A stretch of DNA of 64,000 bases. Source: Urmitella timonensis. GTDB lineage: Bacteria > Actinomycetota > Actinomycetes > Actinomycetales > Actinomycetaceae. A program made the translations under genes and the position numbers. Shown piece after piece: positions 37,055 to 43,766 of this stretch. Position 1 is the first letter of the stretch; the number at the start of each line of letters is the position of its first letter. The stretch spans positions 868,001-932,000 of the forward strand of contig FQLW01000006.1 of the NCBI GenBank assembly GCA_900120415.1. The letters are read 5' to 3'. The notes beneath the pieces were generated by a model. That model was given only the letters and a program-made list of their open reading frames with translations, made no database searches and was not told the DNA's origin.

Positions 37055-37057
37055 GCC

Positions 37058-37195
37058 CTAAGCCGTAAGTTCCTTGCGCCCTTTGCGACGACGACTAGCG
37101 ATAATAGCGCGCCCTGCACGGGTACTCATACGCGCCCGAAAACCATGTTTTTTGGCTCGGCGACGGTTATTCGGCTGAAAAGTCCGCTTTGTCAC
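37058..37195 (-). CDS. rpmH: Ribosomal protein L34
   Basis: 45 aa, read directly from the sequence: GTG start at 37195 preceded by CAGGAGAA, then [19 protein letters not shown], a short middle part ([18 protein letters not shown]) and a TAG stop at 37058. This is the full-length, canonical L34 pattern. First gene of the rpmH-rnpA-yidD-yidC-jag-rsmG-parA-parB run and divergent from dnaA. Confidence 0.97.
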
Positions 37196-37603
37196 TGTAG
37201 TTCTCCTGAGTGTTATTTATTTACCGAAAATGATTCCGATATTTTATTTTCCAGTTTCATTTCACCTGGATTAGACAACATATGCAAGCCTACGCATAGC
37301 GCTTTGCCAGGTCAAATAGTTATTCAGTGGTTATAACCACTAATTTCTAATCACAGGTTTGCAAAGCTGTGGAACTTGAAAAAACTACAAAGATGTAAGA
37401 TGTTAATTTTCTATTATTGCCAAGTTTCAAATTTTTGCAGTTTATGCACGCAGGAAGCTATTTTCATCGTTAAACTACAACCACGTAAGTTATCCACAAT
37501 ATTTTCCCCAGATTGGGGATAACCTAGTTTTTGCCCTACAATCATCAATAACCCCACAGTTGGGGATTCCTCACTGCTTTTATTAGGAATTTTGGAGAAA
37601 TCA
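37196..37603. other. rpmH-dnaA intergenic region, part of the origin region
   Basis: About 408 AT-rich bases without genes, containing the divergent rpmH and dnaA promoters. Visible: one perfect DnaA box TTATCCACA (37490-37498), TTATGCACG (37442-37450), an inverted TGGGGATAA (37514-37522), a 16-base palindrome (37326-37341) and two copies of ACTACA-N4-YGTAAG (37384-37399 and 37474-37489, the second abutting the perfect box). This may be part of oriC or the dnaA autoregulatory region. Confidence 0.7.
37490..37498 (+). promoter_or_regulatory. Perfect DnaA box
   Basis: TTATCCACA, identical to the high-affinity consensus, 106 bases upstream of the dnaA ATG. Confidence 0.8.
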
Positions 37604-39016
37604 ATGTCCAGTTCGCTACAGACACTCTGGCAAGATGCGATAAGACAACTAAAAGAAAATCCACAAGTCGGGCAAGCAGACTTGGCGTTCCTAAGAATGT
37701 CTACCCCTTTGACCACTTACGAAAACACCATCGTAATCGCGACCCCTAATGAATACTCGAAGTCCGTCCTCGAAAACCGACTGGGTTCTTTTTTACGGAA
37801 GGCTCTGTCTACCAGCACTTCCCGTGAAGTTATCTTGGCAATCTCTGTAGATCCTTCCCTAGATCAAGGAGAAACTGTTAGCCCTAATAATGAACAAGAA
37901 ATCGCTCCTGCCCCGCAAAATTTCGAAACCACTGCACAAGAAAAAATTCCGCCCGCTAAACCTAAAAAACCTTTTGAAAGTCGCCTGAACTCGAAATATA
38001 CCTTCGAATCATTCGTAATCGGTGGTTCAAATCGTTTTGCCCACGCTGCAGCTATCGCAGTTGCCGAAGCCCCCGCTAAAGCCTATAACCCGCTTTTTGT
38101 CTATGGCGGATCAGGTCTAGGCAAAACCCACCTACTACATGCAATCGGAAACTACGCTCTAAACCTCTATCCTCATATCAAGGTGCGTTACGTTAATTCC
38201 GAAGAGTTCACTAACGATTTCATTAATTCAGTTTCCGAGGGTAAAGCCCACGAGTTTCAACGCCGTTACCGCAATATCGATATTCTAATGATTGACGATA
38301 TTCAGTTCTTGCAGGGTAAAGAACAAACCATTGAAGAGTTTTTCCATACTTTCAACTCGCTCCATAATGACAATAAGCAGGTAGTTATTACCTCCGATGT
38401 TCCTCCCAAAAAACTTGAAGGATTTGAAGAACGCCTGCGTTCTCGCTTCGAGTGGGGACTTTTAACCGATGTCCAGCCTCCTGACTTAGAAACTAGAATC
38501 GCTATTTTGCGTAATAAAATTCGTCAAGAGGAGGTGGAGGCACCCTCGGAGGTATTGGCCTATATAGCCTCCCGTTTTACTATCAATATTCGTGAGCTTG
38601 AGGGAGCTTTACTGCGGGTTAGTGCTTTCGCCTCTTTAACAAAGCAACCTTTAAGCTTGCAGCTTGCGGAAATGGTATTAAAAGATATTGTTTCTGACCC
38701 TAATGATCAAGAGATTACCCCCGCCCTAATCAAGGCACAAACCGCTGGATATTTTGAAACCACCGTTAATGATTTATGTTCGCCCTCACGTTCGCGTTCG
38801 CTTACCGAGGCTCGTCAAATCGCAATGTATCTTTGCCGAGAACTAACCGAACTGTCGCTTCCTCAAATCGGAAAAGAGTTTGGAGGACGCGATCACACTA
38901 CGGTTATGCATGCAAATAAGAAAATCACCCAGATGATGAAATCTAAGCCCCAGATTTTTGATCACGTTAATGAGCTGACAAATCAGATACGGCAAGCAGC
39001 ACGACATTCTAAGTGA
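37604..39016 (+). CDS. dnaA: Chromosomal replication initiator DnaA
   Basis: 470 aa from ATG 37604, with GGAG just upstream; an in-frame TTG at 37592 is less likely. It binds DnaA boxes and opens the origin. Domain I: LWQDAIRQL... (1-90). Domain II: a short linker rich in Pro/Glu/Ala. AAA+ domain: YTFESFVIGGSNRFAHAAA, Walker A GGSGLGKTHLLHAIG (about 167), Walker B ILMIDDIQFL (about 228). Domain IV box-binding signature: FGGRDHTTVMHANKKI (about 430). Domain II is much shorter than in high-GC actinobacteria such as Streptomyces. dnaN does not follow; a penicillin-binding protein gene does. Confidence 0.98.
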   Translation: MSSSLQTLWQDAIRQLKENPQVGQADLAFLRMSTPLTTYENTIVIATPNEYSKSVLENRLGSFLRKALSTSTSREVILAISVDPSLDQGETVSPNNEQEIAPAPQNFETTAQEKIPPAKPKKPFESRLNSKYTFESFVIGGSNRFAHAAAIAVAEAPAKAYNPLFVYGGSGLGKTHLLHAIGNYALNLYPHIKVRYVNSEEFTNDFINSVSEGKAHEFQRRYRNIDILMIDDIQFLQGKEQTIEEFFHTFNSLHNDNKQVVITSDVPPKKLEGFEERLRSRFEWGLLTDVQPPDLETRIAILRNKIRQEEVEAPSEVLAYIASRFTINIRELEGALLRVSAFASLTKQPLSLQLAEMVLKDIVSDPNDQEITPALIKAQTAGYFETTVNDLCSPSRSRSLTEARQIAMYLCRELTELSLPQIGKEFGGRDHTTVMHANKKITQMMKSKPQIFDHVNELTNQIRQAARHSK

Positions 39017-39474
39017 TTTATCTAATAAAACAGCTCTATATCCTAGTATTTATAAAGAAGACATAAGAATTATTTTAAGTTAATTTTAGATTCCTGCTAC
39101 CAGCGAAACTACAAAAATGTAGTTCTCATGAACACAGGTTAAACCGTGTTTCTCCACAGCTGTTAATAACCCTGTGTATATCTGGGGATTGCAAGTGACA
39201 AATTGTGTATATTTTTCGGCGAAACTGCTTTCCAGACCGAATAATCCTCAACTAATCCCCAGACATCCCCACAAACATTCACAGCAATAAACATAAATTA
39301 ACCTGGGATTTTATCCTTCAATCCCACCAATGCTAGGTAGTGATGATAACGATAAACAATAAAAAATCTATGTATAAACAACCCGCCAAAATTTAAGTGC
39401 TGCCCAAAACAGAAAACTATTTATTACTGAAAAATCAGCACTGAATCGCTATCTTGCTAAGCTAACCTGTACCT
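39017..39474. rRNA. Not an rRNA: gene-free region downstream of dnaA, candidate oriC Confidence 0.
39017..39474. other. oriC: Candidate replication origin (oriC) between dnaA and the PBP gene
   Basis: 458 bases with no gene. The first 90 bases and the stretch about 39330-39440 are very AT-rich and could unwind. DnaA-box-like 9-mers are degenerate: TTCTCCACA (39150-39158, one mismatch), and the 9-mer TGTGTATAT twice (39173-39181, 39204-39212; ATATACACA on the minus strand). There is a near-perfect inverted repeat AACACAGGTT/AACCGTGTT (39131-39150) and a perfect ACTACA-AAAA-TGTAGT (39108-39123). In most actinobacteria oriC lies right after dnaA, so position supports the call, but the absence of dnaN and the weak boxes leave room for an origin split with the regions before dnaA or dnaB. 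Confidence 0.6.
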
Positions 39475-41898
39475 ATGACGGATAAGTATTCATCGCGTGG
39501 CTCTAAATTTAGCGGACAGGACTTTCCTAGCCGCAGACATGAAAAAGAGCAGTTACAAGCCAGAGCACAAGCAAACGCTCAGCGAACCGCTGCACCCTTG
39601 AACCCTGCTAAATATGCCCGAGACGTAAAACCGCTAAAATCGTCCTCAAAAGTCAGTAGCTCAAACGGCTCAAAAAATCGACAAGGTATGTCCCCCTCAA
39701 AACTAGAACCAGCAGGAAAACCCAAAAAAATAGCTGTCAGTACAAAACCTGCTAACAGTCAGCATTCTAAAAACCTGAAAAAATCATCAAACCCAGCAAA
39801 GGCTCAAAATCAAGACACGAGCAAGCCAAGAAAGAAAGCCAGCAAAAATAACCGTCCCCCTAAACGCAGTCGCGTCCTAACTTGGACGAAACGAATCATT
39901 GGGATACTTACCGGGTTAGTTTTAGTGGCAATTATCGCCGGATGTATAACTTTCTTAATTGCCTATTATCGCCTGGAAATACCAGAGGCTCAAAAGTTTG
40001 CTCACGCCCAGGTAACTACGGTTTATTGGGGTAACACTGATAAAATGATGGGAAAGTTTGCCGAACGAAATCGCACCATCGTTGATACCAAGACTTTTAA
40101 AAACTCCTATATTCAAGATGCGGTAGTAGCCAGCGAAGACCGTACTTTCTACGAAAACAGCGGGATTGATATTAAGGGGATAGTCCGTGCCTTTTGGAAT
40201 AACGTCAGAGGACGACCTACACAGGGAGCTTCCACCCTTACGCAGCAATATGTAGAAAACTATTACACCGGAAAAAATGTTGGTTATACCGGGAAATTTA
40301 AAGAAACAATTTTAGCTTTGAAGATAAATCGTCAGGTTTCTAAAGAAAAAATCCTCAATGACTACCTAAATACAATCTATTTTGGACGCGGTGCCTACGG
40401 GATTGAAGCTGCTGCAAACGCTTATTTCGGTAAGGACGCCAAGGATTTAGACCTATCAGAGTCGGCAATGTTGGCGGGAATAATTCCAGCCCCGAACTCA
40501 TGGGATCCACTTGTCAATCCTGACAAGGCAAAACAACGTTGGCAACGAGTATTAAACCTAATGGCTGCCGATAACATGATTAAGGAAGAAGAAAAGTCTA
40601 GCGCCACTTTTCCCAAAGTAATAGAGAAGAAACCACAGGCCACCTACTTTAAAGGAACTACCGGTTACCTGTTACAGCACGTACGACAAGAATTAGTCAA
40701 ACAAATTGGCTATACCGAAGACGAAATAGATCGCGCTGGAATCAAAATTTATACCACCATTGATCCTAAAAAACAGAAAATGATAGAAGATGCTATCGGG
40801 GCTCTTCCAGATAAACTACCAGAGGGATTGCGGGTGGCCGCCAGTTCTGTAGACACTGCAACTGGCGCGATTTTAGCTGAATATGGCGGTTCTGACTATC
40901 AAAAAGTTCAGCGAAATGCCGTTACCCAGGATGTGGCGCAAGCCGGATCAACATTTAAACCCTTCGCCCTATTAGCCGCCCTAGAAAAAGGGCATAAGTT
41001 AAGCGAACAACTTGATGGTTCTGGACCGATGAAAGTCAATGATGCTTGGGTCGGTAACTATGGCGGTGCCTCCTATGGAAAAGTAGATTTGATAAGGGCA
41101 ACTAAGCTTTCAATAAATACCGCTTATGTCAGACTCAATAGTGAGATTGGGATGGAAGCAACCAGGCAGGTAGCAATCTCTGCCGGATATTCGAAAGACA
41201 CCGTAGGGCTGGATAAAAACTCTATCGTGGGGGTTTTGGGAACAAGTTCTCCACACAATTATGAGATTGCCGAGGCATACACTACTTTCGCTACCGGAGG
41301 GGTGCGCAGACCTGCGCACATAATTGCCAAAATTACTGATTCAGCTGGCAATATCCTCTATGAAGCTGAAACTCAAGGCACCAGACAATTTGAAGAAGAA
41401 AACATCTCTGAGCTAACCAAGGCCTTAGCGGCAGTAACCGAAAGCGGTGGAACAGGTGCTACTGCCGGAAAACTAGGACGACCGGTAGCTGCAAAAACTG
41501 GTTCTTCAAATGATAACCGTTCAGCACAATTTGTGGGGTATGTTCCGCAAATGGTCACTGCGGTCTCTATGTATCAGGTGGGTAAGGACGGTTCCGAACA
41601 ATCGATTACCCCATTCGGGGGAGTCAGAGAAGTAACCGGGGGAACCTGGCCAGCAAAAATATGGTTGGCATATATGAAAGATGCTGTAAAAGATTTACCT
41701 GAGCAACCACTATTTTCTGTTGAAAACGGAAAACAAAAAGTTAAACCCAGACCTAAAAAAACTCCCTATCAGACAGCAGAAGTTCCCTCTCCTCCGCCAC
41801 CGCAAACTATAGAAACGCCACTCAAAGTGCCCTCTAGTAGCGTGAGCGAAAATCCGCCTGCGCCCTCTGAGGAACCAAGCACGAGTCCTAGCCCATAG
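39475..41898 (+). CDS. Class A penicillin-binding protein (bifunctional transglycosylase/transpeptidase)
   Basis: 807 aa. A basic, disordered cytoplasmic N-terminus of about 135 residues is followed by a membrane helix (about 145-165). The glycosyltransferase-51 domain has the catalytic Glu in ASEDRTFYEN (about 221) and GASTLTQQYVENYY (about 255). The transpeptidase domain has the SxxK motif in GSTFKPFAL (about 492), SxN in LSINTAY (about 546) and KTGSSNDN (about 675). A Pro/Ser-rich tail ends the chain. It polymerises and crosslinks peptidoglycan. It occupies the place where dnaN usually follows dnaA. Upstream part of the rpsF-side gene run, though about 210 bases separate it from rpsF. Confidence 0.95.
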   Translation: MTDKYSSRGSKFSGQDFPSRRHEKEQLQARAQANAQRTAAPLNPAKYARDVKPLKSSSKVSSSNGSKNRQGMSPSKLEPAGKPKKIAVSTKPANSQHSKNLKKSSNPAKAQNQDTSKPRKKASKNNRPPKRSRVLTWTKRIIGILTGLVLVAIIAGCITFLIAYYRLEIPEAQKFAHAQVTTVYWGNTDKMMGKFAERNRTIVDTKTFKNSYIQDAVVASEDRTFYENSGIDIKGIVRAFWNNVRGRPTQGASTLTQQYVENYYTGKNVGYTGKFKETILALKINRQVSKEKILNDYLNTIYFGRGAYGIEAAANAYFGKDAKDLDLSESAMLAGIIPAPNSWDPLVNPDKAKQRWQRVLNLMAADNMIKEEEKSSATFPKVIEKKPQATYFKGTTGYLLQHVRQELVKQIGYTEDEIDRAGIKIYTTIDPKKQKMIEDAIGALPDKLPEGLRVAASSVDTATGAILAEYGGSDYQKVQRNAVTQDVAQAGSTFKPFALLAALEKGHKLSEQLDGSGPMKVNDAWVGNYGGASYGKVDLIRATKLSINTAYVRLNSEIGMEATRQVAISAGYSKDTVGLDKNSIVGVLGTSSPHNYEIAEAYTTFATGGVRRPAHIIAKITDSAGNILYEAETQGTRQFEEENISELTKALAAVTESGGTGATAGKLGRPVAAKTGSSNDNRSAQFVGYVPQMVTAVSMYQVGKDGSEQSITPFGGVREVTGGTWPAKIWLAYMKDAVKDLPEQPLFSVENGKQKVKPRPKKTPYQTAEVPSPPPPQTIETPLKVPSSSVSENPPAPSEEPSTSPSP

Positions 41899-42058
41899 AG
41901 AGCTGGAAAGAAAATAGCTAGGACATATAAAAGCTACCTACCTAATAGAGCGCGGTAGTGGCGAAAAAGAGCATTTACTAACAAAGTTAAGAAATAGCTA
42001 GAAAAACTGCCTTAACTTCGTTATTCTGTAACGTGACTTTCGGGTCAAATGCATATGC

Positions 42059-42104
42059 CCTCCTGCCGCGGAAGGACCGTGGCCGTTAGACCAAAGGAGG
42101 TGGG
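42059..42104 (+). promoter_or_regulatory. Candidate S6:S18-type autoregulatory leader before rpsF
   Basis: A 7-bp GC hairpin GCCGCGG-AAGGA-CCGTGGC (42065-42083) is bracketed by CCTCCT (42059-42064) and the ribosome site AGGAGG (42095-42100), which are exact complements. Closing that outer helix would hide the rpsF ribosome site. Leaders bound by the S6:S18 complex are known before rpsF in many bacteria and use CCG elements; CCG triplets occur here. Confidence 0.5.
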
Positions 42105-42109
42105 TTAAG

Positions 42110-42394
42110 ATGCGCAAATACGAGATGATGGTGATCCTGAATCCCGAAATCGACGAACGCACAGTAGCCCCGGCGTTAGAAAAGCTACTAAACGTAGTTT
42201 CTACAAACGGGGGAAGTGTGGATTCGACCGATATTTGGGGCAAACGTCGCCTTGCATATCAGATTGAAAAGCATTCCGAAGGGATTTATGCGGTTATTGA
42301 TATGACCACTACCCCGCAGATTGCTGAAGAGCTAACCAGGCAGCTATCGCTAAACGAATCAGTTTTACGTACCAAGCTGCTGCGGCGGGATTAA
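42110..42394 (+). CDS. rpsF: Ribosomal protein S6
   Basis: 94 aa, full length. [19 protein letters not shown] start, central [21 protein letters not shown], and [16 protein letters not shown] end are canonical S6. It binds S18 in the 30S platform. First gene of rpsF-ssb-rpsR-rplI; AAAGGAGG lies nine bases before the ATG inside a possible sequestering stem. Confidence 0.97.
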
Positions 42395-42415
42395 TTTTCG
42401 CGGAGAGGAACGAAA

Positions 42416-42994
42416 ATGGCTGGAGAAACCCAGATAACGGTTGTTGGTAATCTGACTGCCGATCCGGAACTGCGCTACACTGCGCAGTCGGTTCCAGTGG
42501 CCTCATTTACCGTGGCCTCCACTCCCAGAACCTATAATCGCGCGTCCGGACAGTGGGAAGATGGTACCGCCATGTTTCTGCGTTGTTCCGCTTGGCGGGA
42601 AATGGCTGAAAATATCGCTGAATCTTTAACTAAAGGTATGCGGGTGATGGTTCACGGTCGCCTGCAACAACGCAATTGGGAACGTGATGGACAAAATCGT
42701 TCCTCAATAGAGATTCAAGTTGATGAAATCGGTCCGTCTTTACGCTACGCGCAAGCTCAAGTTACCCGGATTCCTCGTTCAGGTGGTGGATTTAATCAGG
42801 GTGGACAGAGCGGATATGGGCAAGTTTCTCCAGCTGGCAGTTTCAATCAAGGTGGCAGTTTTAATCAGGACATGAATCAGAATCTGGGAACGGGTTCTAT
42901 GGATATGGCACAGCCTGAGGCAGCCGGGGTTGATAACCCGTGGGCTACCCCTGTTACCGATGATAACGGCGACAATCAAGCGCCACCGTTTTAA
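42416..42994 (+). CDS. ssb: Single-stranded DNA-binding protein
   Basis: 192 aa. The OB-fold domain (1-115) begins [19 protein letters not shown] and includes [22 protein letters not shown] Gly/Gln/Asn/Ser-rich linker with FNQGG repeats (about 120-165) follows, and the acidic tip ends [11 protein letters not shown], the partner-binding tail. It protects and organises single-stranded DNA in replication and repair. 21 bases after rpsF, in the usual operon. Confidence 0.96.
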
Positions 42995-43008
42995 ATATTT
43001 CAGGATTA

Positions 43009-43025
43009 GACCTACAAAGTAGGTC
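43009..43025 (+). promoter_or_regulatory. Intercistronic hairpin between ssb and rpsR
   Basis: GACCTAC-AAA-GTAGGTC, seven perfect base pairs, 20 bases before the rpsR start and just ahead of its ribosome site. Possibly an RNA processing, stability or attenuation element. Confidence 0.4.
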
Positions 43026-43044
43026 GCACCATTAAGGAGTAAAT

Positions 43045-43287
43045 ATGGCGAAGAAAGTTCTTCGCGTTAAGCCGATAAAGAAAAAGGCTAACCCGTTACG
43101 GAATATGCCGGTTGATAAAATCGACTATAAAGATACCCCTTTCCTCAGGAAATTTATTTCTGATCGGGGAAAGATTCGCTCCCGGCGAGTAACCGGAGTT
43201 AGTGTTCAGCAACAGCGCGCCATCGCTAAAGCAGTAAAGAATGCCCGCGAAATGGCGTTGCTTCCCTATACAAGTTCTGGTCGCTGA
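43045..43287 (+). CDS. rpsR: Ribosomal protein S18
   Basis: 80 aa with [19 protein letters not shown] and [29 protein letters not shown], canonical S18. It has no cysteines, so it is the zinc-independent form. AAGGAG precedes the ATG. Third gene of the operon. Confidence 0.97.
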
Positions 43288-43304
43288 TAGGAGGGATTAT
43301 AGTC

Positions 43305-43766
43305 ATGGCAACAGCCAAAGTAATTTTAAATATGGATGTACCGGGGCTGGGTTCCTCCGGTGACGTAGTAACTGTAGCGCGTGGTTATGCCCGTAACTAT
43401 CTGGTACCTCGGAAAATGGCTCACCCTTGGACTAAGGGTGCTCAAAAGCAGATAGACGAAATGCTTCGGGCACGTAGGCGTCGGGAAATCTCGAATGTAG
43501 AGGACGCCCGCGCAGTTCGGGACGCAATCGAAGCTCACGATACCGTGGTAGTTTCCAAGCGAGCCGGTCATTCCGGTCGCCTGTTTGGAGCCGTATCCAC
43601 CCAGGATGTGGTGGCTGCGGTTAAAGAACAGATTGGGCAAACTATTGATCGGCGCAAAGTCATTATTGAAAAGCCGATTAAAGCAGTCGGTAAATATCAA
43701 ATACAAATCAATTTGCATGAAGATATTAGCGCCAAACTGTTTTTGAACGTTGAGGGATCAAAGTAA
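43305..43766 (+). CDS. rplI: Ribosomal protein L9
   Basis: 153 aa, full length. N-terminal domain VILNMDVPGLGSSGDVVTVA...GYARNYLVPRKMA, a connecting helix, and a C-terminal domain with GHSGRLFGAVSTQDVVAAV. Eighteen bases after rpsR. A strong terminator follows. Confidence 0.97.
   Translation: MATAKVILNMDVPGLGSSGDVVTVARGYARNYLVPRKMAHPWTKGAQKQIDEMLRARRRREISNVEDARAVRDAIEAHDTVVVSKRAGHSGRLFGAVSTQDVVAAVKEQIGQTIDRRKVIIEKPIKAVGKYQIQINLHEDISAKLFLNVEGSK

Follow-up and report, generated by a model that had tools for sequence, protein, structure and literature searches.

Which protein reads a palindrome that stands on both sides of dnaA, and what would it do there? In the window (the whole 64-kb stretch of DNA analysed), an earlier note had pointed out three copies of ACTACA-N4-YGTARK, at 37384-37399, 37474-37489 and 39108-39123, and we found all three in the sequence at exactly these coordinates. 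We put the probability that the copy downstream of dnaA, here called box 3, is an operator of the MerR-family regulator McdR at about 0.8. On the best reading of the sequence comparisons below, McdR would be an origin-associated regulator that links initiation, dNTP supply and division.

Palindromes on both flanks of dnaA

The dnaA gene occupies 37604-39016 on the plus strand (470 aa from the ATG at 37604; the open reading frame list starts it at TTG 37592) and is divergent from rpmH (37055-37210, minus strand, named by eye). The motif of the earlier note described real sites and was understated, as conservation in the perfect copy continues for one more base at either end, an A and a T. The three proposed McdR boxes, none of which is assigned a strand, are accordingly given here with these outer bases. 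Box 3 (39107-39124) is a perfect 18-bp palindrome, AACTACAAAAATGTAGTT, which starts 91 bp past the end of dnaA. Upstream of the gene lie two imperfect palindromes, box 1 (37383-37400, AACTACAAAGATGTAAGA) and box 2 (37473-37490, AACTACAACCACGTAAGT), the latter running into the consensus DnaA box TTATCCACA (37490-37498, plus strand), with which it has the first base of that box in common. This DnaA box is the only exact one at the origin and one of three exact TTWTNCACA matches in the window. It ends 14 bp before the putative -35 element of the likely dnaA promoter (37513-37542, plus strand; TTGGGG at 37513 and TACAAT at 37537), which was located by eye from the sequence and the genus alignment and was not reported by a consensus promoter scan. 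Like the palindromes, DnaA-box-like sites (defined as TTNTCCACA with up to one mismatch) are found on both sides of dnaA. Four of them, with one mismatch apiece, form a group without overall strand at 39150-39212 (39150 on the plus strand; 39161, 39173 and 39204 on the minus strand), and a fifth, also 3' of dnaA and with one mismatch, is at 39369 on the minus strand. The cumulative G-C minimum within the window falls at 39881. Further 3' of dnaA, positions 39475-43766 carry a penicillin-binding-protein-like gene followed by rpsF-ssb-rpsR-rplI (names by eye), a gene order that differs from the dnaN-recF-gyrB found downstream of dnaA in many actinobacteria. A further palindrome, AGTGGTTATAACCACT, is located upstream of rpmH at 37326-37341; it is exact in G000, G005 and G002 and has one to two base changes in G004, G003 and G001.

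The pattern ACTACANNNNYGTARK occurs at three places in the window, compared with 0.01 expected from shuffles, and at four places in the 2.14-Mb genome, three of them at dnaA; the fourth (C5:48682) sits between two unrelated reading frames. Box 3 matches the pattern AANNACANNNNTGTNNTT at 10/10 fixed positions and is the only place in the window that reaches at least 9/10. The 18-mer is identical, spacer included, in all six genus genomes (the 3' alignment comprises all six), and the rest of the intergenic region is variable. Boxes 1 and 2 were likewise found in six of six genomes; their alignment comprises five, with G004 read across contig ends. Given this rarity and conservation, the earlier note's idea held up against the prospect of a motif scattered at background frequency or lacking in relatives. 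Its view of a non-DnaA element at dnaA that is conserved between species is likewise borne out. None of the three palindromes contains an exact TTWTNCACA.

The two upstream boxes score 8/10 fixed positions here, with one good half each. Box 2 scores 9/10 in G004 and G005, and the changes in box 1 (AATAACA in G005, AATTACA in G004) both affect variable positions of the operator. When the six upstream regions are pooled, 8/10 matches are as frequent at spacing N8 (n = 12) as at N4 (n = 12), so that spacing alone does not single out these boxes. As both are weak and the window holds 17 matches at the 8/10 level, the evidence for them consists mainly of conservation and position. One genus genome, G004, additionally contains a perfect ACTACA-N4-TGTAGT before two small reading frames (C1:184874-184889), which is perhaps a mobile element's own operator.

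Directly behind dnaA, a palindrome could also act at the RNA level, as the hairpin or terminator of the transcript, and box 3 can indeed form a 7-bp stem with a 4-nt loop. The predicted fold is no better than that of shuffled sequences (z -1.06; 34 of 200 shuffles as good), there is no T run, the site is absent from the terminator list, and sites of this kind are present 5' of dnaA and at promoters as well, all of which makes a hairpin highly improbable. A second alternative is that the palindromes are operators of a BlaI/MecI/CopY-type repressor; the earlier note had remarked that the TACA/TGTA half-sites recall BlaI/CopY-type operators, with a wider spacing. This likeness does not survive comparison: the spacing in operators of that type is N2, and the genome (assembly 99% complete) yielded no PF03965 match in a search that was positive in seven of 14 control genomes. 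We give it next to no chance.

McdR and its probable operators in the genus

McdR (also ResR, Rv1830) is a MerR-family protein that regulates cell division in mycobacteria; its published operator is AATnACAnnnnTGTnATT, which has a fixed 4-bp spacer and lies before whiB2, MSMEG_0833 and MSMEG_5468 (the Rv0996 homologue); altering the length of the spacer abolishes the McdR effect, altering its sequence does not (PMC9040748). Binding at whiB2 and a tolerance of mismatches are also described (PMC10336103). The consensus AAYTACANNNNTGTARTT was derived from origin loci before it was compared with the published operator, and the generalised form AANNACA-N4-TGTNNTT fits that operator. The spacer of box 3 is exactly 4 bp, as in the McdR operator. 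Two of the 12 fixed positions differ, as box 3 has C/G at positions 3/16 and the published consensus T/A; in other genomes, WhiB2-like and ripA sites often have C/G-type halves like those of box 3.

Four places in the genome match the MerR_1 family, and two of these neighbour each other beside an FHA gene. One is the McdR orthologue (C1:556868-557416), a protein of 183 aa with a PF13411 match above cut-off; NCBIfam holds no model naming McdR, and its weak matches to the orthologue stay below cut-off. Amino acid identity is 61-63% to four Mycobacterium-like orthologues, a label assigned by gene order in a comparison that includes no named Rv1830 sequence. These orthologues keep GITYRQLDYWAR, from which some other genera vary by one or two residues, and the McdR orthologue of this genome, too, keeps this helix region, which is thought to read DNA. 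The second gene of the pair adjoins mcdR and encodes a 255-aa Rv1828-like MerR protein. It, or some factor with the same operator, might bind the palindromes instead, since paralogues can have half-sites in common; the operator that has been tested belongs to McdR, whose whiB2 target is shared here, and we regard another regulator as unlikely.

Besides the place after dnaA, AANNACANNNNTGTNNTT is matched at 10/10 at two further places in the genome, before a WhiB-family gene and before nrdH. All three sites recur in six of six genus genomes, and a reversed-pattern control gave no place in five of them and one in G001. The WhiB-family site, AATGACACGCATGTAGTT, lies 42 bp before a gene with PF02467 that is WhiB2-like by eye. 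The other (C5:1257304; L258 of G000) is a McdR-type box 48 bp before nrdH, which scores above the NCBIfam NrdH cut-off; next in line are nrdI and the beginning of a gene for ribonucleotide reductase (nrdHIE). Adjacency to these genes was confirmed at four of four whiB2 loci and six of six nrdH loci examined, and nrdH is also 3' of a site in another family (L216). A fourth match, AAACACATAAGTGTCTTT, is present in three of the six genus genomes, and the one copy examined (L248) lies inside a long reading frame. A first pattern search had also given AATACAAAAATGTAGT, away from dnaA in G003, G004 and G005; it was set aside as coding, being inside a gene that looks by eye like a sugar transporter. 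The dedicated origin-binding or dnaA-regulating protein of the earlier note is thus retained in part: the palindromes are best read as sites of a protein that acts on dnaA or the origin, and this protein probably does not serve the origin alone, as the same 18-bp operator type stands before the WhiB2-like gene and nrdHIE.

Sites near dnaA and among DnaA boxes in Actinomycetia

Up to 600 bp on either side of dnaA were scanned in 108 loci outside the genus that are named or placed as Actinomycetia, a count in which related genera are not independent events. At spacing 4, the motif was found at 10/10 in 21 sites (19 loci) and at 9/10 or better in 43 sites (37 loci), compared with 0-1 sites at ten other spacings for the former and 1-5 at other spacings for the latter. 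Everted controls at the same spacings gave 0-1 sites (10/10) and 0-7 sites (at least 9/10; five at spacing 4). Fourteen Firmicutes loci yielded none (10/10) and one (at least 9/10) at spacing 4, with 1-5 at other spacings for 9/10. Eleven of the 21 dnaA-flanking 10/10 sites abut a DnaA-box core, compared with 8.7% of positions. Other genera, too, have related palindromes beside DnaA boxes. One such case is AACCACAACGGTGTAATTATCCACA, located before dnaA in Arthrobacter (L041), and two Arthrobacter loci (L041, L042) show a box-2-like arrangement (AACCACAACSGTGTAATTATCCACA). No site of at least 9/10 was found at three Mycobacterium (L082-L084) or 11 Streptomyces dnaA loci, some of which have short flanks (111 bp upstream in L084).

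At the level of whole genomes, AAYTACANNNNTGTARTT is present in 118 of 396 Actinomycetales (reversed control, by our reading, in two) and in 118 of 394 of a sample of the class (reversed control, by our reading, in five), two samples that overlap in genomes. McdR itself is nearly universal, with a strong match in 31 of 32 genomes of a first sample, a count that leaves out a weak MerR-domain match in G066 (E 4.9e-4), and in 30 of 32 of a second, where the other genome without a match is G045 (91% complete). G066 is an assembly of 1060 contigs, and its missing McdR is probably an assembly gap; loss of McdR was considered as the cause of missing sites and rejected, as 10 of the 11 members of its genus in the second sample have McdR. 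With McdR near-universal and 278 of the 396 Actinomycetales genomes lacking the strict site, a genome that has McdR need not have the box.

Part of the sites found in the class lie at promoters. In 10 of 29 loci from the class search (L210-L238), the site precedes a WhiB2-like gene. In Mycobacterium-like genomes, two sites precede RipA-type genes (L236, L237; L237 passes the NCBIfam RipA cut-off) and two precede SepX/GlpR genes above the NCBIfam cut-off (L235, L238). SepX/GlpR (Rv0996/MSMEG_5468) is a published McdR target (PMC9040748).

A different setting dominates among 30 loci from the Actinomycetales search (L158-L187), in 25 of which the site adjoins a rhomboid gene. Both rhomboid and crgA were detected in 16; there the two genes are convergent, with the site in the interval between them. 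One locus has only crgA and a sortase gene (L170), and the remaining four are a dnaA-dnaN locus (L163), the dnaA site of this study (L166), and two loci, L169 and L179 (= L196 and L197), with the site between genes for an NlpC/P60 hydrolase and a Cys/Met-metabolism enzyme (families scanned in L196; the enzyme is O-acetylhomoserine sulfhydrylase by eye). The same operator was noted in L190, L196 and L197 with an NlpC/P60-type hydrolase gene on one side and, divergent, an O-acetylhomoserine sulfhydrylase-like gene on the other, and L191 and L192 have flanking sequence in common with L190. Among 19 more hand-picked sites, a rhomboid gene adjoins six; of these loci, L209 repeats that of G036. In three genomes, the rhomboid-crgA locus is situated downstream of dnaA at a distance of about 15 kb (G030), 17 kb (G036) and 23 kb (G022).

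Within 250 bp of the palindrome, the 25 rhomboid loci contain 12.0 DnaA-box-like sites per kb, compared with 1.0 per kb elsewhere in them; the corresponding counts are zero in 10 WhiB2-like loci and five (0.77 per kb) in 13 other promoter-type loci. The palindrome directly adjoins a DnaA-box core in 23 of the 25 rhomboid loci and in none of the 10 WhiB2-like or 13 other promoter-type loci. The operator thus occurs both at promoters, where DnaA boxes are few or absent and DnaA offers no explanation, and at replication loci, where they are numerous; its association with DnaA boxes recurs across Actinomycetia. These counts also bear on whether DnaA itself might recognise the palindromes as inverted, divergent DnaA boxes. 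The half-site does end in ACA as a DnaA box does, the sites often abut real DnaA boxes or have bases in common with them, and inverted TCCACA-N4-TGTGGA pairs occur near dnaA in some loci. The lack of any nearby DnaA-box-like site at all 10 WhiB2-like promoters with the operator, the lack of an abutting core at all 13 other non-rhomboid loci, and the close fit to the McdR operator, spacing included, make recognition by DnaA very unlikely, and we retain McdR as the protein that would bind.

The rhomboid-crgA setting is convergent and not an obvious promoter, and we consider the interval a candidate DnaA-control locus. No description of a DnaA-box locus between rhomboid and crgA was found in the openly licensed literature. 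In the genome studied here, crgA adjoins a sortase-like gene 208 kb from dnaA, and the 14-kb stretch around it (L189, G000 C5:690000-704000) has no rhomboid gene, palindrome or DnaA-box cluster; the idea that the palindrome had moved with crgA was dropped, as the stretch contains none.

A possible role of McdR and its known counterparts

In M. smegmatis, overexpressed McdR represses genes of cell division and increases the copy number of ori-proximal DNA, and DIP-seq gave five McdR peaks, with dnaA not among three of these that are named (PMC9040748). The main texts of PMC9040748 and PMC10336103 contain no occurrence of dnaA, and the mention of oriC in the former is in its reference list. Across the main texts of the openly licensed literature, no placement of McdR at dnaA, oriC or DnaA-box clusters was found.

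From these data we suggest how McdR might work. Taken to bind as a dimer, it would have a strong site in box 3 and weaker ones in boxes 1 and 2. At box 2, which overlaps the DnaA box at 37490 upstream of the likely dnaA promoter, McdR would meet DnaA; it could compete or cooperate with DnaA at the origin and adjust transcription of dnaA. Its other operators would give it control over division, by way of whiB2, and over dNTP synthesis, by way of nrdHIE. The direction of the effect can be extrapolated from M. smegmatis, where more McdR goes with more origin-proximal DNA and less division, and McdR would then promote initiation. The main weakness is that M. smegmatis may use another route, as the mycobacterial dnaA loci examined are without the box. 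On balance we lean slightly towards McdR modulating initiation or dnaA at box 3, and the distribution of sites suggests that it may act on the start of chromosome replication in many related bacteria. More tentatively, and with somewhat less than even confidence, McdR could be an ancestral actinobacterial replication regulator whose dimers are interspersed with the DnaA boxes of oriC and, in a large number of Actinomycetales, with those of a second cluster in the convergent rhomboid-crgA interval, and would set the amount of free or active DnaA; acting also through whiB2 and nrdHIE, it would time division and dNTP supply as one cell-cycle switch.

The coupling of replication and division in actinobacteria is poorly known, and McdR/ResR matters for mycobacterial growth and drug tolerance. 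No mechanism was found in PMC9040748 for the rise in origin-proximal copy number on McdR overexpression. A likely McdR operator at dnaA, at near-origin DnaA boxes, and before nrdHIE and whiB2 offers a concrete, testable one, and also draws attention to the conserved rhomboid-crgA interval with its DnaA boxes.

Among known systems, clusters of DnaA boxes outside oriC include datA and DARS in E. coli and D78, H24 and H69 in Streptomyces; H69 is, at a guess, the rhomboid-crgA interval. As we interpret that interval, it resembles datA and DARS2 in that each binds a second protein; the partner of those two differs from the one proposed here. The operators of the MerR-family regulators GlnR and TnrA have a TGTNA half-site in the orientation TGTNA-N7-TNACA. 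The half-site and the MerR fold are common to both systems, with sequence matches to GlnR chains (MerR fold), but the GlnR/TnrA half-sites point the opposite way to those of box 3. MtrA at the mycobacterial oriC, AdpA at the Streptomyces oriC, CtrA and Spo0A are transcription factors that bind the origin and adjust initiation (PMC4285127). As with these factors, some of which compete with DnaA boxes (PMC4285127), the sites described here lie near DnaA boxes beside oriC, although the proteins and motifs are different ones. The closest counterpart is mycobacterial McdR/ResR, with which the present system has in common an 18-bp inverted repeat (AATnACA-N4-TGTnATT in mycobacteria, from which box 3 departs at positions 3 and 16), the whiB2 target and a MerR protein (PMC9040748, PMC10336103), and whose Mycobacterium-like orthologues keep the same helix region. 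The named targets of mycobacterial McdR are promoters (whiB2, MSMEG_0833, MSMEG_5468/Rv0996 and rplN), whereas the sites described here flank dnaA and, in other genomes, stand among DnaA boxes.
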